Shown one piece after another: positions 70 through 63,329 of a DNA stretch of 64,000 nt. The notes beneath the pieces are model-generated. The model ran no database searches and had not been told where the DNA came from. It saw only the letters and a program-made list of their open reading frames with translations. The translations under genes and the position numbers were made by a program. Origin of the DNA: Hymenobacter radiodurans (GTDB taxonomy: Bacteria > Bacteroidota > Bacteroidia > Cytophagales > Hymenobacteraceae); the NCBI RefSeq assembly GCF_004355185.1, contig NZ_CP037922.1, positions 3,318,001-3,382,000 on the forward strand, given 5' to 3'. Positions within the stretch are counted from its first letter, which is position 1, and the number at the start of each line of letters is the position of its first letter.

Positions 70-3000
70 ATGAAGCAGTCTTACTCTGGAGCTTTCATCA
101 AATGTTTGTCCTCTGCAATCATGCTGCTCTTGATGCTGGGGCCGGGCGCATCAGTATCCTCGGGGCAGTCAATTGATGTTATTTACAATGGCCCGATCGC
201 CATTACCAAAGGAGGAACTTACAAGGGCAACTGGCGGAGTCTTGATTCCAAAACACCAGCCATTTCTATTGAGACATCGGAGCCTGTGATTATTGAGAAC
301 TCTAATATTCAAAGCGCAGGCATTCTCATCAGAGCGCATTATCAGAATAACGATGTTACCATTCGCAATACGCGTGGCCTAGCTCTTACGCCCACTATTG
401 ATAATGTGCGGCAGGGACGCTTTTTTGATGCGAACAACTTCAAAAACGCCCATCTGGAGCACAACTTCATGGAGCAAACCTCTGGTATCTACTTAGCTAA
501 CTATGTAGGTGACAAGAGCGCGAAGCAAAGTATTAAAGTGCTGTATAACCAAGCACGTAATATCGATGGTCGTACCCGGAATGGTGGGAAAGAACATGTT
601 CAATTTGTACAGTTCAATGGTGTACAGGGGATTCGTGGGGTGGAAATTGCTTGGAATGAAGTAGTAAATACACCGAACAAAAGCTATGTCGAAGACAACA
701 TCAATATCTACAAGTCGAATGGTACTTCTGACAGCCCAATCTTAATCCATAACAACTATATCCAAGGAGGATATCCAGTTCCTGCAACAGCGACGAACCA
801 TTCGGGAGGGGGAATTTTGTTAGGCGATGGTGATCCCAGTTTTTTTGCAGAAGCCAGTGGTTTTGTAAAGTGTTACAACAACCAGGTAGTCAGCATGCTG
901 AACTATGGCATAGCGGTAGCAAATGGTCATGATATTGAAATCTATAATAACCGTGTTGTTTCAAGTGGCTATGTTGATGGTCAATACCTTAACTCCGCTA
1001 ATGTTGGTATCTATACCTGGAACAGCACAAACAGCAATGATACCGATGAGTACTACTTCAATATCTCAGCGCATGATAACCAAATTGGCTATATAAAGAA
1101 GGGGAATTGGGAGGACAGAAACGACACCTGGTTTCGCAACATTCATGTCAATAGGAATAACACCTCTCTTCCGAACCCTATTACCCCCCAGACAGAACAG
1201 GCAGAATGGACTTCTTGGTTAGAGAAAATCAAGAACCAGAATGTAACACCGGGATTAATTGTAGCAGCCCCTACGCCGGCTCCGGCCCCGAATGTAGCCC
1301 CCAGCATTGTGCTGACGGCGCCAACCAACAACCTAGCTTTGCCCCTGGGCCAGTCGCAGCTGCTGACGGCAACGGCTAGTGACGCGGACGGGGCGGTGCA
1401 GAAGGTGGAGTTCTTCCAGGGCAGCACCAAGCTCGGAGAAGTGACAAGTGCACCATATCAACTCAGCTGGACGGCCACTACGGCCGGCACGGTCGCCTTC
1501 AGTGCCCGCGCCACCGACAACGCGGGGGCTACCACCATGGCCACCGCCGTCACCATCACGGTCAATCCGGCCCCCGCGCAGGCCCCTGCCCCCACGCCGA
1601 CGCCTGCTCCAGCACCCGTTGCACCTGTTAACGCTGCCTTTTATCGGGCAATCAATATCAATGGCAACGCCCTCACATTAGACGGTAATAAATGGGAGGC
1701 CAGCAGCTCCGCATCCAACGTAAGTATTGATGGAGAGTACTTTTCAAACCAGAATGTTACGCTCAATCCATCAACTGATGTGGAACGCACTCAGATGATT
1801 CGCTCATCCATAGGAAGCCGGAACGCAGGTATTGAATTTTCGAATGTTTCTAGCGGCACCTATTTCGTGTACCTATATGTATGGGAAGATAATTTCTCCA
1901 TGCGTTTCAATGTCAGTGTACAAGGTCAAGTAGTTCAGAGTGATATTGTGAGTGGTTCAGCTGGAAGCTGGACGCGCTTAGGGCCATACGCAGCAGCAGT
2001 TACCAATGGTCAGCTGAGCATTCGTGCTATTGGTACTGATAATGCGAATATCTCGGGAGTAGAAATCTGGAAATCTACTACAGCACCAGTGCCTGCGCCA
2101 GCCCCTGCGCCAGTTCCTGCCCCAAATATGGCTCCCAGCATTGCCCTGACAGTGCCCACGAATACCCTGACCGTAGGCCAGAATCAACTGCTGACGGCCA
2201 CAGCCAGTGATGCCGATGGTACTGTGCAGAAAGTAGAGTTCTTTCAGGGCAGCACCAAGTTGGGGGAAGTAACGACCGCTCCTTATCAGCTAAACTGGAT
2301 CGCCGCGACCGCTGGCACGGTAGCTTTTACGGCCCGCGCTACCGATAATGCCGGTGCTTCGACTACGAGCGCAGCTACCTCAATCACGATTAATCCGGCC
2401 CCTGCCCCTACGCCCGTTCCCGCACCAACACCGACGCCCACACCGGCTCCTGCCCCGACGCCATCCCCAACGCCCGCTCCTGCCATAGCTCAACTATATC
2501 GGGCGATAAATATTAACGGGGGGCAATTACATTGGATGGCAATAAGTGGGAAGCCAGCAATGGAGCCTCTAACCTGCAACTCAGTGGCACCTTATTCTCT
2601 AATCAGAATGTCAAACTACGCTCGAATCCTGATCCTGTACGTTCTCAAATGCTTCGCTCTTCAGTGGGTGGTCGAAATGTAAAGGTGCAACTGGCTAATG
2701 TTCCTAACGGTGTATATAGTGTATATGTATATGTATGGGAAGACAACAAGCCGGAGCGTTTCAGCTTAGCACTTAACGATAAAACTGTTTTAACCAATTA
2801 TAACAGCGGTACAGCTGGTAACTGGGATAAAATAGGGCCGTTAGCCGTTACCGTTACCGATGGAATCATACGGTTAGCAAGCTCTGGTGGCGACGCCAAC
2901 ATTTCGGGTATTGAAGTTTGGACTGCTCCCGGCGTCACGCCAGCTCAAATCAGCCCACCAACTACTCTAGCTACCACGAACTCGGTTTCCACGCAATCAT

Positions 3001-3239
3001 TTCCGAATCCTTTTGAAGATGTAGTAACTATTCAGACTGAACTAAAAACGGCTGAAACGATGAATGTTGCTCTCTTTAATCAGGTAGGTCGCCTAATTCA
3101 GAAACGCAGCATCAGCTTCAGTGCTGGGGTTGCTCAAAGCAGCATTGACATGAGTGCTTTAAATCTGCCTACTGGGCGATACTATTTGATGTTCATGTCA
3201 GGAAGTTTGTCAGGTAAAACAATCAAATTGACCAAATAG
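70..3239 (+). CDS. T9SS-exported beta-helix / Ig-like / malectin-like surface protein, interrupted by a frameshift
   Basis: This encodes a large extracellular protein, about 1056 residues once one missing base is restored. In order it has an N-terminal signal peptide (residues 1-33), a region resembling a right-handed parallel beta-helix (about 45-395), a bacterial Ig-like domain (about 410-500), a malectin-like domain beginning FYRAININGN, a second Ig-like domain, a second malectin-like domain, and a C-terminal T9SS type A sorting tail (FPNPFEDVV through to IKLTK). Linkers are Pro-Ala-Thr rich. The frame breaks at the run of six G at 2518-2523. With a seventh G the reading continues NGGAITLDGNKWEAS, matching NGNALTLDGNKWEAS in the first malectin-like repeat. 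The remainder is open to 3239. A carbohydrate-binding role at the cell surface is inferred from domain type. Enzymatic activity is not evident. Confidence 0.8.
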
Positions 3240-3260
3240 CTTTAGTTCACTCACTTAGTA

Positions 3261-3309
3261 AAGACGTAAAAAAGCCCGACCTAAATGGTCGGGTTTTTTT
3301 TACGTCTTT
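3261..3309. terminator. Bidirectional intrinsic terminator after the T9SS gene
   Basis: The stem CCCGACC (3275-3281) pairs with GGTCGGG (3287-3293) around a TAAAT loop. It is flanked by an A run and a T run, and the complementarity extends outward through AAGACGT / ACGTCTT. It follows the stop codon at 3239 by about 20 bases. Confidence 0.85.
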
Positions 3310-3637
3310 CTATCTACTAAATGTGGCTAAAAGGCAGGTTTCTAAATCGATAAATAAGTTAAGGATAGCAGCTAGTAGTACATAACTGTGATTCTACCCA
3401 GGGGGCAAATCCCCATGATGTGTATTTTGATTAGATAGAGGAAGGAAACTGTCTCTTGCTGTTTAAAGATAATTTATGATCAACATTCTAATGATCAGTT
3501 ATTTAATGATGAGTTATTAGCTGAGTAGCGCAATAATTTAATTTAATTTTTACAGTAATTTATTGCACTATAAAATATTGCAAGTACATTTATTGATAAA
3601 TCATTACAACAAGACTATATAGTTTCCCCATCTGCAC
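3310..3637. other. AT-rich intergenic region upstream of the gmd-like gene
   Basis: There is no convincing coding frame. It holds a five-G version of the interspersed motif (CAGGGGGCAAAT, around 3399-3410) and then about 200 bases of AT-rich sequence running to the next start codon. It presumably contains the promoter of the gmd-like gene, but no clear -33/-7 pair could be assigned. Confidence 0.5.
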
Positions 3638-4807: not shown

Positions 4808-5770
4808 ATGGAGTTATCTGCCAAAATATATATTGCCGGTCACCGCGGCATGGTTGGCTCGGCCATTGAACGCCGCCTGCGAGCTGCGAACTACCAAAAT
4901 TTGGTGATGCGTACTTCCCAAGAGTTGGACCTGCGCGACCAAGCAGCAGTTGCCGATTTTTTTGCCACTGAACGTCCAGAGTATGTTTTCCTAGCTGCCG
5001 CTCATGTGGGGGGCATTTATGCAAACAGTACGTATCCATCTGATTTTCTCTATGATAATCTGATGATTCAAGCTAATGTGTTGCAGCAGAGCTATGTGCA
5101 TCACGTTCAGAAGCTTCTGTTTTTAGGCTCGTCGTGCATATATCCACGTTTGGCGTCGCAGCCATTGCGTGAAGAATACTTGCTTTCTGGCCCTTTAGAG
5201 CAAACCAATGAGCCCTATGCTATAGCTAAACTTGCTGGAGTAAAACAGTGCCAGGCATATCGCCGCCAGCATGGTTGTTCGTTTATCTCGGCCATTCCCA
5301 CAAATATCTACGGCCCCCACGATAACTACCACGCTCAAAATTCGCATGTATTACCTGCGTTGCTACGTAAGTTTCACGAAGCCCGCATGAATGAGTCGCC
5401 GACTGTAGAAGTATGGGGAACCGGTACGCCCCGTCGCGAATTTCTGCACGTTGACGACTTAGCCGATGCCTGCCTTCACCTTATGCTGCGCTACGATGGC
5501 GCAGAACCGATTAACGTAGGCACAGGCGAAGATATTTCTATTGCCGACTTAGCCCGTTTAATTCAGCGTATTACCGGCTACCGTGGAAAGTTGCGCTTCA
5601 ATGCATTGATGCCCGATGGAACACCACGTAAAATACTGGATGTTAGCAAACTAGCGAGCATGGGATGGCGAGCTTCTATTCCGCTGGATAAGGGCTTGGC
5701 TTCTGTGTATGCTTTGGCAGAATGGGAGTCAGAGCCTCAGTCAATGGGAGAATCGGTATCTACGAACTAG
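4808..5770 (+). CDS. fcl: GDP-L-fucose synthase
   Basis: This NADPH-dependent 3,5-epimerase/4-reductase turns GDP-4-keto-6-deoxymannose into GDP-L-fucose for surface glycans. The 320 residues show the nucleotide-binding GHRGMVGSA (11-19), AAHVGGIYAN, the catalytic SSCIYP serine segment, YAIAKLAG with the catalytic Tyr and Lys, and the downstream TNIYGPHDNYH and RREFLHVDDLADA signatures. All are intact, unlike the upstream gmd-like gene. A reverse copy of the interspersed motif at 5008 encodes the conserved VGGI. It is convergent with the minus-strand glycan genes and separated from them by a terminator. A functional Gmd must be supplied from elsewhere if GDP-fucose is made. Confidence 0.93.
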   Translation: MELSAKIYIAGHRGMVGSAIERRLRAANYQNLVMRTSQELDLRDQAAVADFFATERPEYVFLAAAHVGGIYANSTYPSDFLYDNLMIQANVLQQSYVHHVQKLLFLGSSCIYPRLASQPLREEYLLSGPLEQTNEPYAIAKLAGVKQCQAYRRQHGCSFISAIPTNIYGPHDNYHAQNSHVLPALLRKFHEARMNESPTVEVWGTGTPRREFLHVDDLADACLHLMLRYDGAEPINVGTGEDISIADLARLIQRITGYRGKLRFNALMPDGTPRKILDVSKLASMGWRASIPLDKGLASVYALAEWESEPQSMGESVSTN

Positions 5771-5784
5771 CTGTTTTCATTCAT

Positions 5785-5822
5785 ACAAAAAAGCCCCCCA
5801 AAAGAATTTGGGGGGCTTTTTT
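5785..5822. terminator. Bidirectional terminator built from an inverted motif pair
   Basis: AAAAAAGCCCCCCAAA pairs with TTTGGGGGGCTTTTTT around a short loop, between the convergent fcl and GT4 genes. Each arm is a full copy of the interspersed motif. Confidence 0.92.
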
Positions 5823-8476: not shown

Positions 8477-9817
8477 CTATGCAGCGTGGGCGAGTAAGCC
8501 ACAGGCCAATAAAGCGGCAGCAGCTTTCTCTATCAGTCCGTAGGATAAGCCAGATTGCTCCGCTATAGCAAGCAGAGAATGTTCTTCGTCGGAAAGGTTG
8601 AGCACCCAAAGTAATGCCATCTGCCAATCGGCTCCTTCCGTACCACCGCCGACACCTTTGTAAAGCCCGCGACGGCCCAATTGAGGCTCGCCATACGGAC
8701 TTAGGTTACAGTATCGTTTATTGGTTTCGAGCACGTTGCACACTTGACTGAATATGTCGATGGCTTGACTCAGGTGCTCGGGACGCACAAAATCGAGGTT
8801 ATCGGCGGAGGTGTGATACTCGGCAAACTCCCCAAAAGGTGTGCGTGAAAGACAACCGACAGGTAAATTAAAACCTGGTGAGCAATATTGCCGCTCATCG
8901 TAGCCATAGGGCGAAAAGGCGCGTATCTCGTGCGGTAAACGCGAATCGCGCAACACTATAGCCACGGCCCGATCAACATCGGCAGCACCGCGGCGCGATT
9001 TCTTGTAGGTAAAATTGCCAGGGCCACCTAACAGCGTGGCAACCAATCCATGCTGAATGTGCTGGACGGTTTCAGTATTTCGGCTCAGCCACGTAATGGA
9101 GCCAATAGTGCCAGGGATGAATACAAACCGATAAGAATACTGGCGCGACTGCTCCGCTAAGTGCCGCGCCAAGAACGTAGCCACCGCAATACCCGAGAGG
9201 TTATCATTAGCGAGCGACGGATGACAGCAATGGCAGGAGATTAGCACTTCCTCCTCGCTGCTACCAGGCAGTAATAGCTCCCCATAGGTTAAGGCACCCG
9301 CAGAGTCTAGCGTGCTATCAATACATACCTCATAACGACCGTTCGAAAGAGCTAGACGTGCCTGGTGAGCCAGACAAAAACCCCAATTGGGTTGATAATA
9401 CGAGGTGCGATACGGGATAAGGTCGGGCTGGTCGGGCAGCGAGAACAGATGCTCGTCCAGTTCAGCGCGCGTAAACCAACCGTGCACGGGCGTACTGTAA
9501 TTGAGCACATGCAGGTTATGCTGCTGAAAATCAATAACCCGCTCCCCTTGCTCATTCTTTACCCAGGCATCTCGGATGTTCCATTCGGCCGGAACCGTCC
9601 AATCGAGTGCGGGCGTACCGCTAGGCACTTCATGAATTACCAGTTCGGGCAGATACTCACGCAGAATACCCAATGTTTCCCGCACACCATTGCCGGTGAT
9701 ACTGCGGCAGATAGGAAACAACCGCTCCATCAATCCAAACGGCGTTCTTGGCTGCTCAGCGCTTTCTACAACGGTTGAGGGAGCCTGGGGGGCTTTTTTG
9801 GATAGTGGAGAAGTCAT
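8477..9817 (-). CDS. Aminopeptidase-like (DUF4910/DUF2172 type) polysaccharide-cluster protein
   Basis: The family is found repeatedly in surface-polysaccharide clusters and is related to zinc M28 peptidases. The central HCCHPSLANDNLSG segment carries His and Asp residues expected to bind metal. The N-terminal part includes LFPICRSITGNGVR and the C-terminal part resembles a winged-helix segment. The chosen start at 9817 gives 446 residues (MTSPLSKKAPQ). An upstream ATG at 9895 (MKKAPSFSV) would add 26 residues. Both alternative N termini are encoded by copies of the interspersed motif (9787 and the five-G copy at 9881). The substrate is unknown; a hydrolase acting on an amide of the glycan or its precursor is possible. 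Confidence 0.8.
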   Translation of the reverse strand: MTSPLSKKAPQAPSTVVESAEQPRTPFGLMERLFPICRSITGNGVRETLGILREYLPELVIHEVPSGTPALDWTVPAEWNIRDAWVKNEQGERVIDFQQHNLHVLNYSTPVHGWFTRAELDEHLFSLPDQPDLIPYRTSYYQPNWGFCLAHQARLALSNGRYEVCIDSTLDSAGALTYGELLLPGSSEEEVLISCHCCHPSLANDNLSGIAVATFLARHLAEQSRQYSYRFVFIPGTIGSITWLSRNTETVQHIQHGLVATLLGGPGNFTYKKSRRGAADVDRAVAIVLRDSRLPHEIRAFSPYGYDERQYCSPGFNLPVGCLSRTPFGEFAEYHTSADNLDFVRPEHLSQAIDIFSQVCNVLETNKRYCNLSPYGEPQLGRRGLYKGVGGGTEGADWQMALLWVLNLSDEEHSLLAIAEQSGLSYGLIEKAAAALLACGLLAHAA

Positions 9818-11391: not shown

Positions 11392-11934
11392 TTACAGCTT
11401 GACCGCCATCTGAATATCCGGATGATTACGATCTTTCTCAGAAAGCAGCACAGGTTCAAAAGGCCATTCAATCCCAATAGCCGGATCGTTCCAGCGTAAA
11501 GCCCGCTCAGCGCCAGGTGTGTATTTGGCCGATATCTGATACGAAACGTCCGTGTTGTCTTGCAGTGTGATGAAGCCGTGCGCAAAATACTCGGGCACAA
11601 ATAGCATGCGGAAGTTATCGGCGGTCAGCTCCACTCCTACCCACTGCCCATACGTAGGCGACTGCTCACGCATATCCACAATCACATCATAAATGCCCCC
11701 CTTTGTGCAGCGCACAAGTTTGCTCTCGCCGTGGGGGGCAATTTGATAATGCATACCCCGCAAAGTGCCGCGCTTGGGGTTTGATGATATGCTCGACTGT
11801 AGAGGCGGCTGATGAATACCATGAGCGGCAAACTTATCCTCACACCACGTACGAGCAAAAAAACCTCGCTCATCCGATAACCGCTCTATATCGATGATAA
11901 AAGCGCCGGCTAGCTTAGTTTCGGTAAAGATCAT
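11392..11934 (-). CDS. dTDP-4-dehydrorhamnose 3,5-epimerase family protein
   Basis: This 180-residue cupin-fold epimerase is standard length for RfbC. It has DERGFFARTW near the N terminus, the catalytic-His segment GTLRGMHYQ and VPEYFAHGF. It epimerises C3 and C5 of a 4-keto-6-deoxy nucleotide sugar. The neighbouring cytidylyltransferase suggests that the substrate here is a CDP sugar rather than a dTDP sugar, but this is inferred. No rfbA, rfbB or rfbD lies in the window, so rhamnose synthesis is not supported locally. Confidence 0.87.
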   Translation of the reverse strand: MIFTETKLAGAFIIDIERLSDERGFFARTWCEDKFAAHGIHQPPLQSSISSNPKRGTLRGMHYQIAPHGESKLVRCTKGGIYDVIVDMREQSPTYGQWVGVELTADNFRMLFVPEYFAHGFITLQDNTDVSYQISAKYTPGAERALRWNDPAIGIEWPFEPVLLSEKDRNHPDIQMAVKL

Positions 11935-11995: not shown

Positions 11996-13081
11996 TTAAA
12001 CGTTCGCAGACTCAGTAACAACGGCTGTATCAGCCCATTCCAAATCGGCAGTTAGCTGACCGCTTTCACGCAGGGCAGCAAGCACTTGTAGTCGCATGAG
12101 TTGTGACGAGCGGAAGCTGGTATCGTGGAAGCCCATGCTCATCAACCCATCCCGCAGTTCCGCTATGGTATCGGATAGAGTACGTTGAGGCTGGTGCTGG
12201 GGGGCTAATTGTCGAAACAGGCTAAAGTCGACGCGATACGACCGCTTATCCGGCGGTGCAGCAGCGTTCAGGCTAACAGCAGTACCGGGAATGGCAGCCG
12301 CTACTGCCTCTGCTAACTCACGTACCTGATAGTTCCACTGATCAGAACCCGCGTTTACAGCCAGAAAATCGCCCCCATTGTCCGCTTCCCTACTAATGGC
12401 CCATTCAATAGCCCGCGCCATATCCTGCACATGAATAAGTGGACGCCAAGGTGTGCCATCACTCAAAATATTGATCTCCCCCGCAGCTACCGCACCAGCC
12501 ACAAAGTCATTGACGACCAAGTCTAATCGCAACCGATCGCTCCACCCGCAGGCAGTGGCGAAGCGCAGGCAGGTAATACAAAAATTATCATCAGCCAAGG
12601 GCGCCAACTCTTGCTCGCTTAGCACTTTAGAGCGTGCATAAGCGGTGAGTGGGTTCAGGGTAGATGTCTCTGTTTTGGCTCCTTCGCCGCCAGCGCCATA
12701 CATACTACAGCTGCTGGCAAAAACAAACGCACGCACACCAGCTTCCTTAGCCCGTTGCGCCAGCCCAATCCCCGCCTGATAGTTTACAGCTAGGGTTACC
12801 TCCTCATAAGCTGAGCCCATTGGGTCGTTGGAAATCGCCGCCAGATGCACGATGGCATCAACACCTTGAAGTAACTCTGTGGGCAAGTCGCGCACGTCAC
12901 CAAAATGTTGCCGGTCAAGCCGCGATTCAGGCAAGCGGCCTGCGCCGGTAAGACAATGAGCAAAAAAACCCATGTCAAACCCAATCAGCTCAGCCGCAGG
13001 AAACTCCCGACGCAGGTGGCGCACGACGCCGGGCCCTACGTAGCCCATATTACCAGTAATGAGAATGCGTTGCGGTTTCAT
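11996..13081 (-). CDS. NAD-dependent sugar epimerase/dehydratase (extended SDR)
   Basis: This 361-residue extended short-chain dehydrogenase has the N-terminal nucleotide-binding motif TGNMGYVGPGV (about 9-19), DAIVHLAAISNDP, the catalytic SSCSMYG serine segment and YARSK with the catalytic Tyr and Lys. It is expected to act on a nucleotide-linked keto-sugar, as a 4-reductase or epimerase. Its place between rfbF and the 3,5-epimerase gene supports a role in a CDP-sugar pathway. The exact reaction cannot be assigned. A reverse motif copy at 12199 encodes LAPQHQ near the C terminus. Confidence 0.85.
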   Translation of the reverse strand: MKPQRILITGNMGYVGPGVVRHLRREFPAAELIGFDMGFFAHCLTGAGRLPESRLDRQHFGDVRDLPTELLQGVDAIVHLAAISNDPMGSAYEEVTLAVNYQAGIGLAQRAKEAGVRAFVFASSCSMYGAGGEGAKTETSTLNPLTAYARSKVLSEQELAPLADDNFCITCLRFATACGWSDRLRLDLVVNDFVAGAVAAGEINILSDGTPWRPLIHVQDMARAIEWAISREADNGGDFLAVNAGSDQWNYQVRELAEAVAAAIPGTAVSLNAAAPPDKRSYRVDFSLFRQLAPQHQPQRTLSDTIAELRDGLMSMGFHDTSFRSSQLMRLQVLAALRESGQLTADLEWADTAVVTESANV

Positions 13082-15081: not shown

Positions 15082-15135
15082 ACGCAAAGTGATAGTAGTT
15101 GGATACACGGGCCAAATTTGCCCCCCAGCGATAGT

Positions 15136-16530: not shown

Positions 16531-17341
16531 GAGTTAGTACAAGTAGGCAGTAGGCAATGAGGAAGTGGTGTTTGATGGTCTTGTACGCATGCAAAGTAAA
16601 AGCATTCTGTAGTTAAAACAATATTTTTTATAACTTTTTACCGTAAAAAGATAATATTTTGTTAATACAACAATAATATTCCGTTATCCAACTTTAGTAA
16701 ATCCAGTAAAAAGCACATATTTCTATATTATTTAGTGATTTTATGTCCTTTTACTCACAACTCTCTATAAGGTTTCATATAATTTCTGTCAAAATTGATA
16801 CCACCCAGGCTTTTAAGCCTGAATCTTAGTAAGACAAGCGCTAACGAGAAAGACAGTCAAAAAATCCACCCAAGCTCAACAGACACCAATTTTTATCGCA
16901 AACACCTCATTCATAGCCACTATCAACATATTAAATATACAATATTAATAGCCAAGTAGATAGTGAAATCATAGGTTAAAATAATTTTTGATAGCCTCGA
17001 AATAGTGTAGAAAAAGCTTAAAATATTTTCTTTTCGTTCAGTTAACCGCCAGAATGGGTAGTCTGACACAAGCCCCTAAGAACTATTACTTCACTGCAAT
17101 CCACTCTCTGCCTCTAGTGAGCGGACTTTATGCAACACTAACTTCTCGATTGGGCTGATAGAAATGCCTTTGATGTCAGTGAGCAGAGGTTAGGTGCTAT
17201 TTTGATGTTATAAACAGAAAAAAGCCCCCCAGAATGCTTGTTTGCTGATTTATCATTCTTGTAAAGTCTGATATAATGCTTCACTAAAGTGTCTTAGCTG
17301 GATTGTCACTGAAACTTACCGTCAAGCTTAAATTGGTTATT
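16531..17341. other. Long AT-rich divergent intergenic region
   Basis: About 810 bases separate the divergent polysaccharide locus and rpiA. No coding frame is convincing. It is markedly AT-rich between about 16600 and 17030. It has a small perfect hairpin (AGGCTTTTAAGCCT, 16808-16821) and a forward motif copy at 17224. The size suggests regulated promoters for the polysaccharide genes. Confidence 0.6.
16592..16622 (-). promoter_or_regulatory. Possible Bacteroidota-type promoter for the polysaccharide genes
   Basis: On the minus strand TACTTTG (16598-16592) resembles the -7 element TAnnTTTG with one position missing. ATTG (16622-16619) resembles the -33 element, at roughly the usual spacing, about 60 bases upstream of the sugar-transferase start. 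The match is imperfect. Confidence 0.3.
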
Positions 17342-18091
17342 ATGGCAAACTCTGAATTACGCGGCCTAGTAGACAACGAAAAACGGCGTGCGGCGGCGCA
17401 AGCCCTACACTGGGTGAGCGATGGTATGTTGGTGGGACTAGGCAGTGGTAGCACGGCTGCTTACTTCATTCAACTGCTTGGCGAAGCGCTTCAAGCAGGA
17501 AAGCTTCGAGTGCAGGCAACGGCTACCTCGCTGGCCAGTGAGACATTGGCTCGGAGTGTAGGCGTTCCGTTGTTAGCGCCCCGGCGCGGGTTGCGCTTTG
17601 ACCTGACCGTAGATGGAGCCGACGAAATTGACCCGCAACTCACTCTTATAAAAGGAGGTGGCGGTGCCTTGCTGCGCGAAAAGGTGCTGGCAACAGCATC
17701 AGATTATCTGTTGATTATTGCTGACTCCTCGAAGCTGGTGCCGCAACTGGGCCAGTTTCCGCTGCCCTTGGAAGTGGTACCTTTTGCGCTGCCTTGGGTA
17801 CTGGATGCCGTAGCGCAGCTCGGAGGCGAGCCAACAGTGCGGGTAGACAAGAAAAAAGCCCCCCAACCTGCTCTTTCCGACCAAGGCAACTTATTGGTGG
17901 ATTGTCATTTCCGCTCTATACCCGACCCGACGGAGCTTGCACTTCAACTGCAAGCCATTCCAGGTGTTGTAGAACACGGCTTATTTCTGGGTTTGGCACG
18001 TGCAGCTATTGTCGCTCAAGAGGAAAAGCTGCTTGTGCTGCGGCCCGGAGTTGCGCCGGCTGATGCAGTCGACTTTACAAAATTGCCTTGA
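17342..18091 (+). CDS. rpiA: Ribose-5-phosphate isomerase A
   Basis: This interconverts ribose-5-phosphate and ribulose-5-phosphate in the non-oxidative pentose phosphate pathway. Its 249 residues contain GLGSGSTAAYF, the catalytic DGADEID segment, KGGGGALLREKV and the C-terminal GVVEHGLFLGLA. The start at 17342 (MANSELRG) is chosen; an in-frame upstream codon at 17303 would add 13 unlikely residues. A forward motif copy at 17858 encodes KKKAPQP in a variable surface segment. The gene faces the gnd-zwf-pgl genes, 12 bases from the end of pgl, so the local pentose phosphate genes are convergent. Confidence 0.95.
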   Translation: MANSELRGLVDNEKRRAAAQALHWVSDGMLVGLGSGSTAAYFIQLLGEALQAGKLRVQATATSLASETLARSVGVPLLAPRRGLRFDLTVDGADEIDPQLTLIKGGGGALLREKVLATASDYLLIIADSSKLVPQLGQFPLPLEVVPFALPWVLDAVAQLGGEPTVRVDKKKAPQPALSDQGNLLVDCHFRSIPDPTELALQLQAIPGVVEHGLFLGLARAAIVAQEEKLLVLRPGVAPADAVDFTKLP

Positions 18092-22483: not shown

Positions 22484-22628
22484 AGCAGCACCCGAACAGA
22501 ATAACAAATCGTAAAACCTTCTTCTACGCGGACCCGCGCTGTCGGGTCACATCAAATTTGCCCCCCAGCTTTCTCTAAAGAATTCGTACGCAGCAAATGC
22601 CCTTCTATATGGCACTCAACGCGCGGAG

Positions 22629-38339: not shown

Positions 38340-38378
38340 CAAAAAAGCCCCCAGAAACGTTTCTGGGGGGCTTTTTTG
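38340..38378. terminator. Bidirectional terminator from an inverted motif pair
   Basis: ACAAAAAAGCCCCCAGAAA pairs with TTTCTGGGGGGCTTTTTTGT between convergent genes. The core is the same as that at 49866-49904, including the loop AGAAACGTTTCT. The arms carry five C and six G. Confidence 0.92.
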
Positions 38379-45662: not shown

Positions 45663-45713
45663 GCGCAAAAAAGCCCCCCAACCGCTCTTTATCAGTTGGG
45701 GGCTTTTTTGCGC
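45663..45713. terminator. Terminator from an inverted motif pair after the rhodanese gene
   Basis: GCGCAAAAAAGCCCCCCAAC (forward copy at 45673) pairs with GTTGGGGGCTTTTTTGCGC (five G at 45698) around a loop of about 14 bases. The arms extend beyond the motif into AAGCGC / GCGCTT. Confidence 0.9.
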
Positions 45714-46825: not shown

Positions 46826-48748
46826 CTACGCCCGCAGTTTTCCATTCGGCTCATACTGAAGCACTCGCGTATCGACCAGCTCGCGCAGCAGCTGAGTTAC
46901 GGATTCGGCCTGCTGGGGGGCAAATTGGGTGAGTAGTTCGCGGGGTGTTTGGGGGGCATTTTTTAGCAAGTCTACGAGTTGGGCGCGTAGCGTTGGCGAA
47001 GGCTGAGCGGGTTGTTGGGCTTTCTTCTTAGCTAAGCAAAAATCGCAGACGCGGCAGACAGGCGCGTCCATTTCGCCAAAATATTCCAGCAACAACTGCT
47101 GCCGACACCGGCCACCCAAGCTGTATTCAATGACGGCCTCCGTCTGGTGCTGAGCCAGCTCACGCGCGGCCCGCAGGGCCGGCTGATTCAGCGGCAGCTT
47201 GTCCACGTCGTGGCGCGGAGTAGTGAACAGTGCTTGAGGTGAATTGTGCTGGGGTTGATATTGGATAATGCCCGAGCGGTGCAAAAACAGCAGCATTTTG
47301 CGTACTTCTACTACACTCAGCCGCAGGTGCTGGGCGAGGCTGTTCTCAGATATTTTCTGGAAGCCTGCGAAGATTTCTCCTCCATTCAGACGCAGTAAAG
47401 ACTTGATGAGCTTATCGTGCGCGGCATTGGCTACCTGAAACCGGTACAAATCGGTATGATCAATAGGAATATGCACACGAGCGGGATTGTTTACCGCCTC
47501 ATTCATCTGTACTAGGCCTTGCCGTGCCAATGCTTTCAGGGCATTATGCGCGTCGAGGGCTTTGATTCGATATGTTTCGGCAAATTGCTGAATATCAAAA
47601 TCAAAGGCTACCAACTCGCCCCCGCCAACGGCCGTACGCGAGAAGTTCGCTAAGGCCTGATATACCCGCCGGACCGTATCGAGAGGCGGGTGGGCCAATT
47701 CAGCGCGACGACGCTGCTCCGCTGCTTCGTTGGGACTGGCTAGGAGCACGGCAAAGGCATACTTCTCGTCGCGGCCGGCGCGGCCGGCTTCTTGGTAGTA
47801 AGCTTCCAGCGTATCGGGCGCGTCGAGATGCACGACCAAGCGCACGTCGGGCTTGTCGATACCCATCCCGAAAGCGTTGGTAGCCACAATTACGCGAGTT
47901 TTGTTCTGCATCCAGTCCTGCTGGGTACGGTGGCGTTGCTCACTAGGCAAGCCCGCGTGGTACGCCGCCGCCGACACCTTGTGGTGCTGCAAAAAAGCTG
48001 CAGCATCCTCCACCTGCCGCCGCGTGCGCCCATATACGATGGCCGTTTTATCAGGACCCACACCGCGCAGCACTTCCTGTAAGCGCCGCAGCTTATCCTC
48101 GGTCTGCAGAACAGAATACGACAGGTTAGGCCGGGCGAAGCTTTGCTGAAAAACCTGATGATTGGGCCCAAACTTTAGTCGCTCGATAATATCTGCCTTC
48201 ACAGGTTTGGTGGCAGTGGCCGTGAGAGCAATGACCGGCACCTTCGGCAGCAACTCGCGTAGCTCCACAATCTGCAGATAAGGCGGCCGGAAGTCGTAGC
48301 CCCACTGCGAGAGGCAGTGCGCCTCATCCACAGCCAGCAGGTTTACTTTCATCTTCGCCACCCGCACCCGAAACATCTCCGTCAGCAGCCGCTCCGGCGA
48401 CACGTACAGAAACTTCACCGGCCCATACACGCAATTATCCAGGGTCTGGTCGATTTCCTGATGGCTCATACCAGCGTACACTGCTTCAGCCTTAATGCCC
48501 CGCGCCCGCAGCTGCTCCACCTGATCTTTCATCAAGGCAATCAGCGGCGACACCACTACACAAATACCCTCCCGCGCCAGCGCTGGCACCTGAAAGCACA
48601 CACTTTTGCCCCCCCCTGTGGGCAGCAAAGCCAGTGTATCTTGCCCCGCCAGCACCGAGCGAATAATATTCTCCTGAAACGGCCGAAAAGCCGTGTGACC
48701 CCAGTGCTGGCGAAGCAGGTGCAGGATATCGTCGGTAGGTAAAGGCAT
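46826..48748 (-). CDS. recQ: RecQ-family ATP-dependent DNA helicase
   Basis: This 640-residue 3'-5' helicase is used in recombination and fork repair. It has FRPFQENIIRSVL (motif 0), Walker A LLPTGGGKSVCFQVP, VVVSPLIALMKDQV, DEAHCLSQWGYDFRPPY (DEAH box), ALTATAT and the motif VI ATNAFGMGIDKPDVR through YYQEAGRAGRDE. The RecQ C-terminal zinc site (CRQQLLLEYFGE, CRVCDFC) and winged helix follow. No clear HRDC domain is visible; the tail ends in a short helical region. The Walker A Gly codons fall in an eight-C run on the plus strand (48609-48616). Reverse motif copies at 46915 and 46951 encode FAPQ and KNAPQ near the C terminus. Confidence 0.93.
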   Translation of the reverse strand: MPLPTDDILHLLRQHWGHTAFRPFQENIIRSVLAGQDTLALLPTGGGKSVCFQVPALAREGICVVVSPLIALMKDQVEQLRARGIKAEAVYAGMSHQEIDQTLDNCVYGPVKFLYVSPERLLTEMFRVRVAKMKVNLLAVDEAHCLSQWGYDFRPPYLQIVELRELLPKVPVIALTATATKPVKADIIERLKFGPNHQVFQQSFARPNLSYSVLQTEDKLRRLQEVLRGVGPDKTAIVYGRTRRQVEDAAAFLQHHKVSAAAYHAGLPSEQRHRTQQDWMQNKTRVIVATNAFGMGIDKPDVRLVVHLDAPDTLEAYYQEAGRAGRDEKYAFAVLLASPNEAAEQRRRAELAHPPLDTVRRVYQALANFSRTAVGGGELVAFDFDIQQFAETYRIKALDAHNALKALARQGLVQMNEAVNNPARVHIPIDHTDLYRFQVANAAHDKLIKSLLRLNGGEIFAGFQKISENSLAQHLRLSVVEVRKMLLFLHRSGIIQYQPQHNSPQALFTTPRHDVDKLPLNQPALRAARELAQHQTEAVIEYSLGGRCRQQLLLEYFGEMDAPVCRVCDFCLAKKKAQQPAQPSPTLRAQLVDLLKNAPQTPRELLTQFAPQQAESVTQLLRELVDTRVLQYEPNGKLRA

Positions 48749-50614: not shown

Positions 50615-50740
50615 ACAAAGCTACGGATCAATCGCAGATTATGACGTCCAATTCAATTCCTTAGCTTGTGGGAAAGTGCTGGGGGGCAAATTCCGAATTT
50701 GCTGCCTACATTTTAGCTTCCTGCAGCTACTAATCTGTTT

Positions 50741-51865
50741 ATGCCCAACTCTCTATTGTTCCGTCGCTGGTGGGCGTTTGTGCCGCTGCTCACCCTACTA
50801 GGGTTGGCAATTGTATTAGCCGCTGGCTGGTGGTGGCCGCGGTTGGCTCCTTCCTACCCCATTCCGGCTGCTACGGCGAACGTAAGCATCGCGGTCAACT
50901 TGAATAACCGCATACGTGGGGTAAGCTGGGTAGGCAGCGACTCCATTACCGATGTTGAGCTGGCCCCATTGCAGCAGCACAACGTAACTTGGATAGCGCA
51001 AACGCCCTTTGGCTGGCAGCGCGGTGCCACCTCTCCCACCATTGGTATGCACACCGGGCGTGGGCGCGTATATTGGGGCGAAAGCGACGCAGGCCTCATT
51101 CAGACAGCTCAACTAGCCCGCAAGCGCGGTCAGCATATCCTGCTCAAACCTCATCTGTGGGTGCGCGGCGATGGCACCTGGCCCGGCGACATCCGCATGA
51201 CCTCCGAGGCCGACTGGAAAGCCTGGTTTGCGAGCTACACGACCTTCATACTGCACTACGCCGAACTGGCTGAGCAACAAAAACTTGACGGCCTGTGTAT
51301 CGGCACCGAGCTAGAGCAAACAACGACTGCTGCCCACGAAACCGAGTGGCGCGCCCTTATTCGTCAGATACGCCAAGTGTACCACGGCCCGCTCACCTAT
51401 GCTGCCAACTGGAGCGGTGAGTACGAGCATATTCGATTTTGGGACGCGCTAGATTACATTGGCATTCAAGCCTATTTCCCGCTCACCAAGAACCGCAAGC
51501 CCACCAAAGCTGAACTGCTGGCAGGCTGGCAGCCACATCTGAAAGCCATCGAGCGGGTGCAAAAGCGTTTCGACAAGCTTGTGGTTTTCACTGAAATGGG
51601 CTACAAATGCACCGCCGACGCTGCCGTGGAACCTTGGGTCTGGCCCGACCGCACCACAGCTTTCCTACAACTCGACGAGGACACACAAGCCACTTGCTAC
51701 GCGGCCATGTTCGAGACGTTTTGGACGAAAAAATGGTTTGGGGGGCTTTTTGTCTGGAAGTGGTATCCGAAACTAGCTCCTGACGGCCCAGCCCGGCGCC
51801 ACGCTGATTTTACGCCCCAACATAAAGAGGCTGCCCAAGTTATGGCACAGTGGTTTGGAAAGTAG
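50741..51865 (+). CDS. GH113-like membrane-anchored glycoside hydrolase
   Basis: This 374-residue protein has an N-terminal membrane anchor or signal (FVPLLTLLGLAIVLAAGWWW, about 13-32) and then a TIM-barrel domain resembling GH113. Candidate residues are the acid/base Glu in LCIGTELEQ (about 189) and the nucleophile Glu in VVFTEMGYKC (about 287), with LKPHLWVRGDGTW and QAYFPL nearby. Characterised GH113 enzymes are beta-mannanases; the specificity here is not established. A reverse motif copy at 51740 encodes WFGGLFVWKW near the C terminus. Confidence 0.82.
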   Translation: MPNSLLFRRWWAFVPLLTLLGLAIVLAAGWWWPRLAPSYPIPAATANVSIAVNLNNRIRGVSWVGSDSITDVELAPLQQHNVTWIAQTPFGWQRGATSPTIGMHTGRGRVYWGESDAGLIQTAQLARKRGQHILLKPHLWVRGDGTWPGDIRMTSEADWKAWFASYTTFILHYAELAEQQKLDGLCIGTELEQTTTAAHETEWRALIRQIRQVYHGPLTYAANWSGEYEHIRFWDALDYIGIQAYFPLTKNRKPTKAELLAGWQPHLKAIERVQKRFDKLVVFTEMGYKCTADAAVEPWVWPDRTTAFLQLDEDTQATCYAAMFETFWTKKWFGGLFVWKWYPKLAPDGPARRHADFTPQHKEAAQVMAQWFGK

Positions 51866-53154: not shown

Positions 53155-53229
53155 AGTCTTTCTGCTGTTACAACAAAAAGCCCCCCAGAGCTACTCTGGG
53201 GGCTTTTTGTTGTAACAGCAGAAAGACTT
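53154..53229. terminator. Very long perfect-armed terminator built on an inverted motif pair
   Basis: The arms are about 35 bases. AAGTCTTTCTGCTGTTACAA leads into a forward motif copy (53180), and the reverse complement follows after a four-base centre, with only one extra C in the left run. The stem continues far beyond the usual terminator and touches both flanking stop codons. Confidence 0.92.
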
Positions 53230-55909: not shown

Positions 55910-58273
55910 TTACTCACTTTTGGCAGGCATAGGCAGTGCCACTCGTACTGTTGTTCCACGATCGGGATGGGAATCGAGCGAAAAACGCCCCCCAAGGAGT
56001 TCAGCACGATTACGAATGCTAATAATGCCCATACCTGGGTCGGAAGTTATTTCAGGAGAACTGGGCATTCCTTGGCCATTATCCTGCACGCTAAGAACCA
56101 CCTGATCATCCTCTTGCTCTACTTGGATATGTACTATTCGGGCGTGAGCATGTTTGATAACGTTGGTCAAGAGCTCCTGAACAATACGGTATACAGCTAG
56201 CTCAAGCAGGAGCGGGCGGGGCTGGTCTAGGCCAGTCAGATGCAGATGAACCTTAAGCTTGCCTGGAGGAATATGCTTAACCAACTCCTGTAATGCCACT
56301 TCTAACCCAAAATCTTCCAGAATACCAGGTGTTAATTGGTGCGACACATTGCGTGTAGCCTGAATCGCTTCATTCAATGCTTGCCACACCGCCGGGTCGG
56401 GAGGAGACTGTCGGCCGTTCTCAAGGTTAAGTTTGGTCACGTAGAGCAGTTGGCCCACTCCGTTGTGCAAAGCCTCAGCAATTCGCTTGCGCTCAGCCTC
56501 TTGGGCAGCAAACACAGCCCTTACAACGGTTTGCTGCTGCTGACGTTGAAGCTGAACGGCATCGGCAAGCATGCGGTTTCGCTCGGTTATGTCACAAATG
56601 GTAATCAGGATACCCGTCACTTCGCCCTGATCAGTGTTTCGGAGGGGCACAAAATACATGTCGTAACTACCGGGTCGGAGCCTTAAGCGCTGGTTAAACA
56701 GTGTGATGGGCTTCCCATCCCGGACCTTCTCCAACAGGTTCCTCATCTCAGGCGTTTCGAGGTAATGAGGAAGGACGTCGAAAAATGAACGACCCAGCGC
56801 CTGCTCTTCCGGCACAGATGAATACTGAGCGGCGGTCTGGTTCCATGCCATCACGCACAGGTTCAGGTCTAGCGCAACCAAAGCGTCGGGGCTGTGATCA
56901 ATCACTTGCTTGGTAAATGCCTTCTCAGCACGCAAATTCTTCTTCATCTGCTCCGACTCGGTGATGTCGAGGGAGAAGATGACAGCCTCCTGCTTTGCTC
57001 TATCGAAGAAGCCGTAGTTCTGATAATACACTTCGTTGCCTTCCCAGGCCACAAAGCTTACCGTACTGATAGAGTTACCGGCCAAAAGGTGACGTATGTG
57101 CTCGGCTTCATCCGGAAACCCATCGAAAATGCTAGCTCCCTGCAGCTGATTATCCTGGATACCCAAGGGGCGCAAACCTAATCCTACAAGATCCAGAAAT
57201 ACCCCCCTATGGTCGAGCCTGGTCAATACTACCGGCATATTATGTACCATGTAATCCAGAAGGCGATTCTTATAGCTTAGCTCTTGCTGGGCCCGACGCT
57301 TGGCGCTGATATCACGCAGTACTCCCAACAGCTGATCGGGTTGGCCTTCTTTTTTCTGTAGCTCACCCCGAAACCGTATATAGCGAATGGCTTTAGCAGC
57401 GCCTAACACCCGAAATTCCAAGACTAAGGGCCGACCGGTTTGCTGAGCCTGCGCTAAAATTTCGCTAACCGGAGCCAGATCCTCTGGATATATTTGTTGG
57501 GCAACTTCCTTGGCAGGAACAGGTTCCGTTCCGGGAGGCAGACCGAGTAAGTTGCGGGCGAGTGCATCGAGTACTACCTCTTTGCTCCCTAGAATATACC
57601 TCACAGTGCCTACGCCGGCAGCATCCAATGACCGCTGCTTGTCTTCTTCGCTTTCGAGGCGGTGCTGTTCAGCTATTTTGAGCGGAGTTATATCGCGCCA
57701 AACGGCATACAGAAGAGTGCGTGTGTCCATCTGGACTGGCGTGAGCATGATTTCCCCCCAGAACTTCTCACCAGTATACCTCTGGCCCAGCCACTCATAG
57801 CGATAGTGGCCCTGGGCTACAGCCCGACGGCAGTAATCGTCGGCACGCTCGCGGCTGAGATGACCGTCGGGCTGATGCTGGGGGGCAAATTCAGCGACAT
57901 GACGGCCCAAAAGCTGTTGCTTGTCTGGGGCCCCAACCAGTGCCAACATGGCAGCATTGCAATCGACGAAGTAGTTATCGAGCAGCAGAAATACGGCATC
58001 ACTACTGTATTCAAACAGGCGCTGAAAATTGTCGGCGGACGGGTTGGCGGAGGTGTGGGCCGTGGCCACCTTAGCGGCTTGTTGAAGGGCTTTTATTTGC
58101 TTCTGGGCGCGGTCCAACTCCTGCTGCTGCAAGCGTAGCATGGTTTCGTAGAGCAACTTTGGGGGCGGCTCCGCACTCAAGTAGGCAGCATCTGTGGTGG
58201 CCAGATGCTGCAATGCCTGTTGGCGCAATGCGTTAAGTTCTGTGGACGCAGGAACAGAAAAAGATCTAGCCAT
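55910..58273 (-). CDS. Multi-PAS NarL-class sensor histidine kinase
   Basis: This 787-residue soluble kinase has a helical N terminus, then about four PAS domains (roughly 85-200, 210-330, 335-445, 450-570). These lead to a HisKA_3 domain with AQEAERKRIAEALHNGVGQ (His about 607) and an ATPase domain (VQELLTNVIKHAHA, VQDNGQGM, GMGIISIRNRAELLGG). HisKA_3 kinases pair with LuxR-type regulators, and one lies just upstream at 58475 in the same direction. No membrane helices are visible. A reverse motif copy at 57880 encodes EFAPQHQ. The signal sensed is unknown. Confidence 0.9.
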   Translation of the reverse strand: MARSFSVPASTELNALRQQALQHLATTDAAYLSAEPPPKLLYETMLRLQQQELDRAQKQIKALQQAAKVATAHTSANPSADNFQRLFEYSSDAVFLLLDNYFVDCNAAMLALVGAPDKQQLLGRHVAEFAPQHQPDGHLSRERADDYCRRAVAQGHYRYEWLGQRYTGEKFWGEIMLTPVQMDTRTLLYAVWRDITPLKIAEQHRLESEEDKQRSLDAAGVGTVRYILGSKEVVLDALARNLLGLPPGTEPVPAKEVAQQIYPEDLAPVSEILAQAQQTGRPLVLEFRVLGAAKAIRYIRFRGELQKKEGQPDQLLGVLRDISAKRRAQQELSYKNRLLDYMVHNMPVVLTRLDHRGVFLDLVGLGLRPLGIQDNQLQGASIFDGFPDEAEHIRHLLAGNSISTVSFVAWEGNEVYYQNYGFFDRAKQEAVIFSLDITESEQMKKNLRAEKAFTKQVIDHSPDALVALDLNLCVMAWNQTAAQYSSVPEEQALGRSFFDVLPHYLETPEMRNLLEKVRDGKPITLFNQRLRLRPGSYDMYFVPLRNTDQGEVTGILITICDITERNRMLADAVQLQRQQQQTVVRAVFAAQEAERKRIAEALHNGVGQLLYVTKLNLENGRQSPPDPAVWQALNEAIQATRNVSHQLTPGILEDFGLEVALQELVKHIPPGKLKVHLHLTGLDQPRPLLLELAVYRIVQELLTNVIKHAHARIVHIQVEQEDDQVVLSVQDNGQGMPSSPEITSDPGMGIISIRNRAELLGGRFSLDSHPDRGTTVRVALPMPAKSE

Positions 58274-59116: not shown

Positions 59117-59406
59117 GGGAGAGAATGTAAGTAAAATTTCGAATCACCCTACTGAGCAGCTAGCGAAGCGGCCCATCTCCCTGCATTTGTATATGAATGT
59201 AAGTAATTGCAAATGAGGTAAAAAACGATTCTTAAGAATGGGTCATTCAAATACCGAAAGGGAGTAAAATAAATCAAAATTTGCCCCCCATTTTCTACGA
59301 AACGAGTATAAGGCAATAGCAAAATGTGCGGGTCGAAAATCTATCTTGACTGACTCTATTTTACCTACCTATCATCTTATCCGACGCGTTATCCTACTTG
59401 ATATAT

Positions 59407-59970: not shown

Positions 59971-60525
59971 CTAACGCTGTAGCTTACGCAGCGCCAACAG
60001 GCATAAAGCAACGGAGCCCGCCACCCGAATCTGGCCGCTAAGAATCATGCTTTCAACTTGTGTGACGGGCACTGTGAGTACCTCTATATTTTCGGTCGGA
60101 TCGAGCTGCTGGTCGGCTACCAGCCGTGCGTTGCGGGCCAGAAAAAATGAGATAGTGTTTGTGTCCTTGGTGGGGTTATCGCTTACTTCCAACAGCAGCT
60201 CCAGCTGATCAGTAGTGTAACCGGTTTCTTCCAGCAGCTCGCGCCTAGCTGCTTCCTGGGGGGCTTTTTCGCCCTCGTCTACTACGCCTCCGGGCAGTTC
60301 AATCAGGATTTGGCCAAAGCCATGCTTGTACTGTCGGACCAACACGACCTGCTCGTCTTCGGTCACGGCGAATATCAGCACCACATTGGAGCGTACACTC
60401 ACAAAGTAATCGTCGAGTTGTTGCCCGTCGGGCAGTTCCACATGGTCGCGGCGAACTTTATACCACGGATGATCAAATACCAGTTCAGATGTAAGCGTCT
60501 TCCAGGGCTCAATTTTTTTTGTCAT
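59971..60525 (-). CDS. NUDIX hydrolase, ADP-ribose pyrophosphatase type
   Basis: This 184-residue enzyme has the complete Nudix box GVVDEGEKAPQEAARRELLEETGY (Gly, Glu, Arg-Glu, Glu-Glu in register) at about 80-103. It hydrolyses a nucleoside diphosphate linked to another group; the surrounding sequence fits the ADP-sugar class. A reverse motif copy at 60258 encodes EKAPQ inside the variable part of the Nudix box, so the motif is accommodated even in a catalytic signature. Confidence 0.9.
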   Translation of the reverse strand: MTKKIEPWKTLTSELVFDHPWYKVRRDHVELPDGQQLDDYFVSVRSNVVLIFAVTEDEQVVLVRQYKHGFGQILIELPGGVVDEGEKAPQEAARRELLEETGYTTDQLELLLEVSDNPTKDTNTISFFLARNARLVADQQLDPTENIEVLTVPVTQVESMILSGQIRVAGSVALCLLALRKLQR

Positions 60526-61214: not shown

Positions 61215-61239
61215 CCAATTAATTGCCCCCCAGAATTTT

Positions 61240-62722: not shown

Positions 62723-62733
62723 GCTGAGATACC

Positions 62734-62782
62734 AACGATAAAAAAAGCCCCCCAGACGAGTCTGGGGGCTTTTTTTATCGTT
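62734..62782. terminator. Terminator from an inverted motif pair after the fasciclin gene
   Basis: AACGATAAAAAAAGCCCCCC begins the left arm (forward copy 62747). The right arm is its reverse complement with five G in place of six. The centre is GA between GAC and GTC. Confidence 0.92.
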
Positions 62783-62960
62783 GATTACCTTGGGTTAACA
62801 ATGCGGCAAGTCAGCCCATTTTTACTGGAGTCTGGGCCTGATAGATTGCGTTGGGCTTGTCCTGAACAAAATATTTTTCCGGGCGGCAACAGTTGTTGAG
62901 TAAGCGTTTTGCGTAGAAAGAGAACAGTGCCCCAAATGGGCCATCAACCTCTACCAACCT

Positions 62961-63329
62961 ATGAAAGACTCTTCAAAAAAAGCCCCCCAGAACCCCGACG
63001 AGCAGCCTCCACGCCGTACCACCCAAAACCAGCCGGCTACGGCCGCTGACCCAAATGCATCGTTTCCGGGCACTGGCGATGAGCACCGACCTGGCGAAAA
63101 CCTTTATACCCTGCCCGAGATGCAGGAGCCACAGCCCCGCAACCCAACGGAGCCGCAGCCTAAATCAACCAACGAGCCAGCCGCCGAAACGTCGATGCTG
63201 GACCGCGAGACTCACGGCCAACTTCTCGATGAGCCGGCGTCAGATGGCAAGTCGGGCATCAGCGACAGCGTCATCAACCCAGTTATTGCGCAATCGAGCC
63301 GCCTCGAAGACAACAACCGCGGCGAGTAA
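62961..63329 (+). CDS. Disordered polar hypothetical protein
   Basis: This 122-residue protein is very rich in Pro, Gln, Asn, Glu, Thr and Ser with no hydrophobic core (PRRTTQNQPATAADPNAS, MLDRETHGQLLDEPASDG). It is expected to be intrinsically disordered. Its N terminus KDSSKKAPQNP is encoded by a motif copy (62982). A second short polar protein begins at 63882. Role unknown. Confidence 0.6.
   Translation: MKDSSKKAPQNPDEQPPRRTTQNQPATAADPNASFPGTGDEHRPGENLYTLPEMQEPQPRNPTEPQPKSTNEPAAETSMLDRETHGQLLDEPASDGKSGISDSVINPVIAQSSRLEDNNRGE

Follow-up and report, generated by a model that had tools for sequence, protein, structure and literature searches.

Hymenobacter radiodurans carries a short asymmetric DNA word, WWWWGCCCCCCA (core word GCCCCCCA), that recurs about two thousand times in its genome and that drew attention in one stretch of 64,000 nucleotides of contig NZ_CP037922.1 (positions 3,318,001 to 3,382,000), here called the window. 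The word is real, genome-wide, constrained and specific to one lineage, and it is one of a family of such words, or dialects, that occur in different relatives. By analogy with the uptake signal sequences (USS) of Pasteurellaceae and the DNA uptake sequences (DUS) of Neisseriaceae, there is a somewhat better than even chance that it serves as a signal for the uptake of self-DNA, with uptake, receptor and mechanism all putative.

Abundance, consensus and constraint of the word

A first-pass annotation of the window, made from the letters alone, had counted 50 GCCCCCC/GGGGGGC cores, 30 on the plus strand and 20 on the minus strand. A recount returned the same figures, against 11.6 ± 3.4 in dinucleotide shuffles. 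Four A/T bases stand immediately 5′ of 46 of the 50 cores, as had been stated, and an A stands immediately 3′ of 42, one fewer than the 43 first given. Less than one copy of the flanked motif had been expected by chance, and shuffles do yield 0.22 (maximum 2), while the window holds 38 copies of WWWWGCCCCCCA, 20 plus and 18 minus. The cores also occur in both orientations and in genes and gaps alike, just as described, with 36 of the 50 inside coding sequences (CDS, called with our own simple gene predictor) and 14 outside; all reading frames are used, some rarely.

The enrichment extends well beyond the window. Its genome (G000) comprises 4.919 Mb in two contigs, the window lying on the contig of 4.729 Mb, and contains 2191 copies of the word (1101 forward and 1090 reverse) against 4 of the reversed word (3 and 1). 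Across 399 predicted CDS from 404 kb of sampled chromosome, the word occurs 174 times and the reversed word not at all; synonymous codon shuffling within genes leaves 5.3 ± 2.2 copies, with a maximum of 12 in 100 runs. The outcomes named in the first-pass annotation as refuting, counts no higher than in shuffled controls or an enrichment limited to the window, were thus not observed. Clearly, then, no protein-level or codon effect is at work, and the first-pass view of a signal at the level of DNA holds. Indeed, among positions of the sampled chromosome where GCCCCCCA could be written synonymously, 201 of 577 (35%) are filled. Two sets of word-poor relatives fill 4 of 154 and 12 of 436 of theirs, and the reversed word occupies 4 of 502.

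The consensus consists of an A-tract (AnTm, usually lacking a TpA step), a G, six Cs and an A, with a G preferred thereafter; word plus flank can also be written A-tract-GCCCCCCAG. In 474 kb the perfect form (WWWWGC6A) is found 250 times and outnumbers any variant, the one-C deletion WWWWGC5A reaching 83, the commonest one-base substitution WWWWGC6G 50, and WWWWGC7A 3. The four-base flank is free of TpA at 230 of the 250 sites, as against 5692 of the 13264 A/T tetrads that precede other Gs. At conserved cores, flanking A/T positions have turned into G, C or a gap in 2 of 532 cases compared with 12–17% of A/T positions elsewhere, a comparison conditioned on a kept core, which favours conserved surroundings. 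Swaps between A and T in these flanks run at about 2%, the same rate as elsewhere, and this argues that base class is what is being maintained. The flank seems to be selected for A/T class with no fixed sequence, so that the feature recognised may be its shape. The AT-rich segment of the Pasteurellaceae USS is likewise described, in the cited passages, as As first and then Ts (PMC1626085).

Relatives, dialects and the origin of copies

The family sample comprised 200 genomes, namely G000, 115 others of its genus and 84 from five other genera. Only four are rich in the window's word: besides G000 these are G041 (2142 copies), G165 (2721) and G196 (1955), the others having 0–22. In a ComEC tree of 81 genomes the four form a single clade with a support of 100. 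Conservation was measured at 87 sites in 154 kb of G000, set against these relatives at 84–86% aligned identity. G165 retains the core at 65 of 79 aligned sites, G041 at 18 of 21 and G196 at 50 of 70, while composition-matched 8-mers are identical at 32–39%. At 13 of the 20 unkept sites in G196 the difference is one missing C. The assembly of G196 is 93% complete, which makes sequencing errors in homopolymers likely, although G000 too has the C5 form as a common variant. Given such probable errors, the motif count of G196 may be too low.

The word is depleted in two plasmid-type replicons. Contig C1 of G000 (190,065 bp) has 5 copies among the matches listed, whereas chromosomal density would predict about 88, and 80 kb of its sequence holds exactly two, in agreement with those listed there. 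Four 20-kb samples of C1 have 11 of 105 accessible core sites filled, an occupancy that lies between the chromosome and the word-poor relatives given above. Over its first 20 kb, C1 is identical (100.0%) to a section of a circular plasmid from Hymenobacter sp. HDW8, and that plasmid (302,741 bp) has 6 copies of the word. C1 also carries resistance-nodulation-division (RND) metal efflux, P-type ATPase and cation diffusion genes.

A k-mer screen of 88 genomes of the genus (18–120 kb each), followed by whole-genome counts, revealed other words in other lineages, as dense as that of the window or denser. One of these, CTAGGCCA, occurs 4554 times in G163, 4381 in G173, 4306 in G172 and 2587 in G164, with 16–544 copies in the other 116 of 120 genomes. 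Another, GGGGTAGG, exceeds 1000 copies in 14 of 120, up to a maximum of 5122. Counted in all 200 genomes, CCTAGGG reaches 9854 copies in G059, 5828 in G138 and 5800 in G185, and 1220–1947 in G080, G181 and G179. It is also abundant in a second genus, with 3406 copies in G004 (L242), 3342 in G015 and 3322 in G030, as against 56–103 in the five other genomes sampled there. Finally, 20-kb samples yielded GCTAGGG in G036, G031 and G050, and AACCTAGGTT in G080 and G181.

These words, too, stand well above synonymous shuffles: 38 against 5.2 for CTAGGCCA; 55, 34 and 30 against 3.1, 5.2 and 3.7 in three groups with GGGGTAGG; 54 against 3.4 for CCCTAGG; 31 against 5.5 for GCTAGGG; and 11 against 0.7 for CCTAGGTT. 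Their accessible sites are filled to 55/106 for GGGGTAGG, 33/89 for CTAGGCCA, 31/137 for CCCTAGG and 30/256 for GCTAGGG. In the ComEC tree the CTAGGCCA genomes form a clade with a support of 100, as do the pair G080 and G181, and the GCTAGGG trio is supported at 99. TAGG is common to five of the six words and absent from that of the window. At the thresholds used on samples of 18–60 kb, 54 of 81 genomes of the genus received no dialect label; one of these, G104, has 1521 copies of GGGGTAGG over its whole genome and is rich in it, and weak or missed dialects are therefore possible.

Several further candidates were set aside. Both TGCGCGA (93 of 120 CDS copies in one frame) and GGCAATG (60 of 77) probably reflect mostly codon or codon-pair effects, yet synonymous shuffles give 73 and 30 copies where 120 and 77 are seen, an excess of 1.6-fold and 2.6-fold; they are over-represented in several Hymenobacter, with 78% of CDS copies in one frame. 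ATGACGT, at 11 against 6.2, was too weak. Beyond the family, TCGAACCG is a possible weak word in L027, an uncultured Bacteroidetes genome (G204, 2.8 Mb), where its 309 copies against 91 of the reversed word amount to a moderate enrichment that was judged weak. Weaker words are present in L072 and L017 as well.

The copies arose mostly without insertion. Codon alignments of 13 conserved genes from the comEC region contain 119 unique dialect sites. Of these, 15 fall in columns that are fully gapped in most dialect-free genomes (baseline 2%) and 104 do not; most copies therefore seem to have been born by substitution, in permissive places. Dialect sites are about five times as frequent in gap-prone columns (0.201 against 0.041), and insertions or deletions could be involved in a minority of them. 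Permissive placement has been reported for Neisseria DUS too, and many recent DUS are ascribed to recombination in the cited passages of PMC2397512.

Placement and copies in the window

Among the 250 sampled sites, 174 lie in CDS and 76 outside. At 20 of the latter 76 a pairing TGGGGG follows within 45 bases downstream, so that a hairpin-like pair results, and the sites are densest in convergent gaps (15 in 4980 bp, compared with 13 in 13435 bp of divergent and 44 in 46868 bp of tandem gaps). Within tandem gaps, 30 sites are closer to the end of the upstream gene and 11 to the next start. The window has four hairpins with the motif, which are listed below together with all matches to WWWWGCCCCCCA.

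5007..5018, minus: motif copy AAATGCCCCCCA
5787..5822, unstranded: terminator-like inverted pair, two full motifs
5789..5800, plus: motif copy AAAAGCCCCCCA, left arm of that pair
5809..5820, minus: motif copy AAAAGCCCCCCA, right arm of that pair
9786..9797, minus: motif copy AAAAGCCCCCCA
11732..11743, minus: motif copy AATTGCCCCCCA
12198..12209, minus: motif copy ATTAGCCCCCCA
15116..15127, plus: motif copy ATTTGCCCCCCA
17220..17231, plus: motif copy AAAAGCCCCCCA
17854..17865, plus: motif copy AAAAGCCCCCCA
22556..22567, plus: motif copy ATTTGCCCCCCA
23399..23410, plus: motif copy ATTTGCCCCCCA
24677..24688, minus: motif copy TTTTGCCCCCCA
25901..25912, minus: motif copy AAAAGCCCCCCA
26306..26317, minus: motif copy AAAAGCCCCCCA
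27206..27217, plus: motif copy AATTGCCCCCCA
29548..29559, plus: motif copy TTTTGCCCCCCA
31078..31089, plus: motif copy AAAAGCCCCCCA
32419..32430, plus: motif copy AATTGCCCCCCA
32616..32627, minus: motif copy TATTGCCCCCCA
35779..35790, plus: motif copy AAATGCCCCCCA
36539..36550, plus: motif copy ATAAGCCCCCCA
37245..37256, minus: motif copy ATATGCCCCCCA
38341..38377, unstranded: terminator-like hairpin, C5 arm paired with C6 arm
38364..38375, minus: motif copy AAAAGCCCCCCA, within that hairpin
40352..40363, plus: motif copy AAATGCCCCCCA
41104..41115, minus: motif copy AAATGCCCCCCA
43541..43552, plus: motif copy TTTTGCCCCCCA
45669..45680, plus: motif copy AAAAGCCCCCCA
46914..46925, minus: motif copy ATTTGCCCCCCA
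46950..46961, minus: motif copy AAATGCCCCCCA
50680..50691, minus: motif copy ATTTGCCCCCCA
51739..51750, minus: motif copy AAAAGCCCCCCA
53161..53222, unstranded: long terminator-like inverted repeat with motif inside
53176..53187, plus: motif copy AAAAGCCCCCCA, terminator-like hairpin 3′ of the ATP-grasp_2 + Ligase_CoA gene (51952-53154)
57879..57890, minus: motif copy ATTTGCCCCCCA
59279..59290, plus: motif copy ATTTGCCCCCCA
60257..60268, minus: motif copy AAAAGCCCCCCA
61221..61232, plus: motif copy AATTGCCCCCCA
62733..62783, unstranded: terminator-like hairpin with motif inside
62743..62754, plus: motif copy AAAAGCCCCCCA, within that hairpin
62978..62989, plus: motif copy AAAAGCCCCCCA

The minus-strand motifs at 25902 and 26307, 405 bp apart, share extended flank similarity within one long open reading frame (ORF, 25303-27102), which suggests an internal repeat. 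Another ORF of the window (18104-20353) combines glucose-6-phosphate dehydrogenase and 6-phosphogluconolactonase-type domains and adjoins a 6-phosphogluconate dehydrogenase gene.

What the word may do

Copy number, strict consensus, origin of the copies and pairs at gene ends all reproduce features of uptake sequences in full, while phylogenetic dialects and depletion in acquired DNA do so in part. The likeness reaches beyond what the first-pass annotation could check, with lineage-specific dialects, an A-tract flank, conserved sites, filled synonymous positions, enriched convergent gaps and depleted plasmids. The first-pass annotation had likened the word to an uptake or Chi-type signal and pointed to competence genes as a check. 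Of that likeness, the genome-wide, uptake-sequence-like DNA signal stands and the Chi side is weakened; of the genes, ComEC is encoded in 119 of 120 genomes of the genus (the sole exception being 82% complete) and DprA in 40 of 40 tested, while no type IV pilus ATPase was found in G000. Work on Riemerella anatipestifer, in the passages cited, has shown that transformation involves ComEC, DprA, ComF and RecA together with four proteins lacking homology to known machinery (PMC8459023). Riemerella columbina, of the same phylum, prefers its own DNA in transformation; its commonest k-mers are plain A/T-rich words, and in the cited part of the paper the question is left open (PMC7965970). Searches of an open-access library, which covers neither preprints nor most subscription papers, turned up no description of uptake words in Bacteroidota, Hymenobacter included, among the papers listed.

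A self-DNA uptake system of this kind is proposed to work in four steps. A surface or periplasmic receptor would bind the A-tract with GCCCCCCA(G), and DNA bearing the word would be taken up preferentially, then passing through ComEC, DprA and RecA. Copies born by point mutation would spread, and lost copies would be restored, because incoming DNA with the word would enter the genome more often, until the synonymously accessible space was largely filled. Finally, receptor specificity might shift in a lineage, and the genome would slowly be rewritten into a new dialect.

A number of observations weigh against an uptake signal. ComEC and DprA occur in word-rich and word-poor genomes alike, with no separation. 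PF00437, the ATPase family of type IV pili and type II systems and the one pilus family searched, scored above its cut-off in a single genome of 40 and had no match in G000; in that lone genome, G118 (L237), none of the words counted genome-wide is abundant. No DNA receptor for the word was found: DUF5689, a family from R. anatipestifer transformation, occurs in 44 of 120 genomes, patchily in rich and poor alike, and has no match in G000. Nor did any gene beside comEC track the dialects generally among the 45 largest clusters from 81 genomes, across which this neighbourhood is conserved. Genomes with GGGGTAGG are scattered over three or more parts of the ComEC tree, and the CCTAGGG genomes G059 and G138/G185 belong to the same 13-genome group and are not sisters; some dialects must therefore recur or have been partly lost. 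Different dialects coincide at shared homologous positions no more than synonymous constraint predicts (15 overlaps against 13.3, P 0.35), and spacing showed no significant departure from randomness (coefficient of variation 0.78–0.89, Kolmogorov–Smirnov tests not significant). Recent arrival and higher GC could be a partial cause of the plasmid depletion, and conservation, depletion and saturation would equally fit other chromosome-wide binding sites. The literature found mentions Hymenobacter and natural transformation together merely in passing, in the parts consulted.

As a separate observation on the comEC neighbourhood, a DUF2141 ORF (L224:9099-9566) lies beside comEC in the four GCCCCCCA genomes and, among the 81, at that position only there.

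One such binding site, which we regard as unlikely, would be that of a protein of the nucleoid or of chromosome organisation, one that recognises an A-tract beside a G-tract and whose specificity varies by lineage. The A-tract flank and its constraint, the spread over the genome and both strands, the plasmid depletion and the failure to find an uptake ATPase of known type in G000 would all suit such a protein. The 54 of 81 genomes without a dialect label, on the samples described and with G104 actually rich in GGGGTAGG, make a general housekeeping role unlikely. No nucleoid protein is known to need an exact 8-bp core in thousands of copies while the word turns over within a genus.

A second alternative, slightly less likely again, resembles the highly iterated palindromes (HIPs) of cyanobacteria: a word-specific methyltransferase, with a mismatch repair bias linked to methylation, would make and keep the words. 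Cyanobacterial HIP1 and its alternates are likewise short, highly iterated words, and HIP1 has apparently been replaced by other palindromes in some lineages, with matching methyltransferases, according to the cited passages (PMC4390886); the CCTAGG-type dialects are palindromic or nearly so. However, HIPs are palindromes tied to methyltransferases, whereas GCCCCCCA, CTAGGCCA and GGGGTAGG are all non-palindromic, and the window's word is asymmetric, with an A-tract flank whose A/T sequence varies. A varying A/T flank is unusual for a methyltransferase.

A third alternative, a Chi-type signal for an AddAB or RecBCD-type enzyme, is improbable. Chi hotspots as generally known are asymmetric, G-rich and over-represented on chromosomes, and the word shares these properties together with plasmid depletion. 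Its G-rich strand is the presumed leading strand at 143 sites against 107 (p 0.027 against equality), with replication halves assigned from the sign of GC skew. A polarity like that of Chi or of FtsK-orienting polar sequences (KOPS) was nevertheless rejected, as other words of 6G1C1T composition are split 894 to 772 and do not differ (p 0.31); the strand bias is no greater than composition gives. Moreover, known Chi sites are of 5–8 bp, whereas the consensus here is longer, 8 bp plus a constrained flank, and turnover within the genus would require six different words, or none, among related species.

Lastly, copies of a mobile or repetitive extragenic palindromic (REP)-like element, or an artefact of codon use, composition or slippage, might be read into the 15 sites in mostly gapped columns and the 20 hairpin-like intergenic pairs, but this is very improbable indeed given the synonymous shuffles, the reversed-word control, the preference for C6 over C7, similarity that ends at the flank and the 104 sites outside such columns.

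Turning back to self-DNA uptake, the closest parallels are the two established systems. Like the Pasteurellaceae USS (AAGTGCGGT and ACAAGCGGT types), as the cited passages describe them, the word has a strong exact core with few one-mismatch copies, an adjacent AT-rich segment, many copies in coding sequences and more than one core type per family (PMC1626085). It differs in that its AT tract precedes the core on the strand written here, whereas the tract of the USS follows 3′, and in having no second AT segment. Hymenobacter moreover belongs to an unrelated phylum, no pilus ATPase was found in G000, and uptake is putative. The Neisseriaceae DUS share copy numbers in the thousands, dialects that are at least partly phylogenetic, conserved copies and terminator-like inverted pairs, as far as the cited passages go (PMC3630211, PMC2397512), as well as a short core common to the dialects, CTG there (PMC3630211, in part) and TAGG in five of the six words here. 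In contrast, the window's word lacks TAGG, two words here span more than one clade, and the DUS receptor is ComP, a minor type IV pilin according to the cited part of PMC12061091, while no such machine was found here with PF00437 as the pilus family searched. Because one defining part of the machine is missing from G000 in that search and uptake is putative, the word is described as most likely working like a USS or DUS, and not as a member of either known family.

Pasteurellaceae and Neisseriaceae are the established cases of self-DNA recognition through an iterated genomic word, as stated in the cited part of PMC7811141. It is possible, at a little less than an even chance, that Hymenobacteraceae possess sequence-specific uptake independent of pili, with about six dialects, as a third independent invention of self-DNA recognition, in which the receptor has switched repeatedly and one lineage reads the junction of an A-tract and a G-tract. 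If confirmed by experiment, uptake of this kind would be new for the phylum Bacteroidota. Some six dialects together with dialect-free relatives in a single genus provide a natural series for a receptor hunt by comparative genomics, and the same series serves tests of why such words arise and spread, so far an open question. A USS/DUS-like signature in Bacteroidota apparently lacking type IV pili would, if true, make the phenomenon broader and point to another machine.

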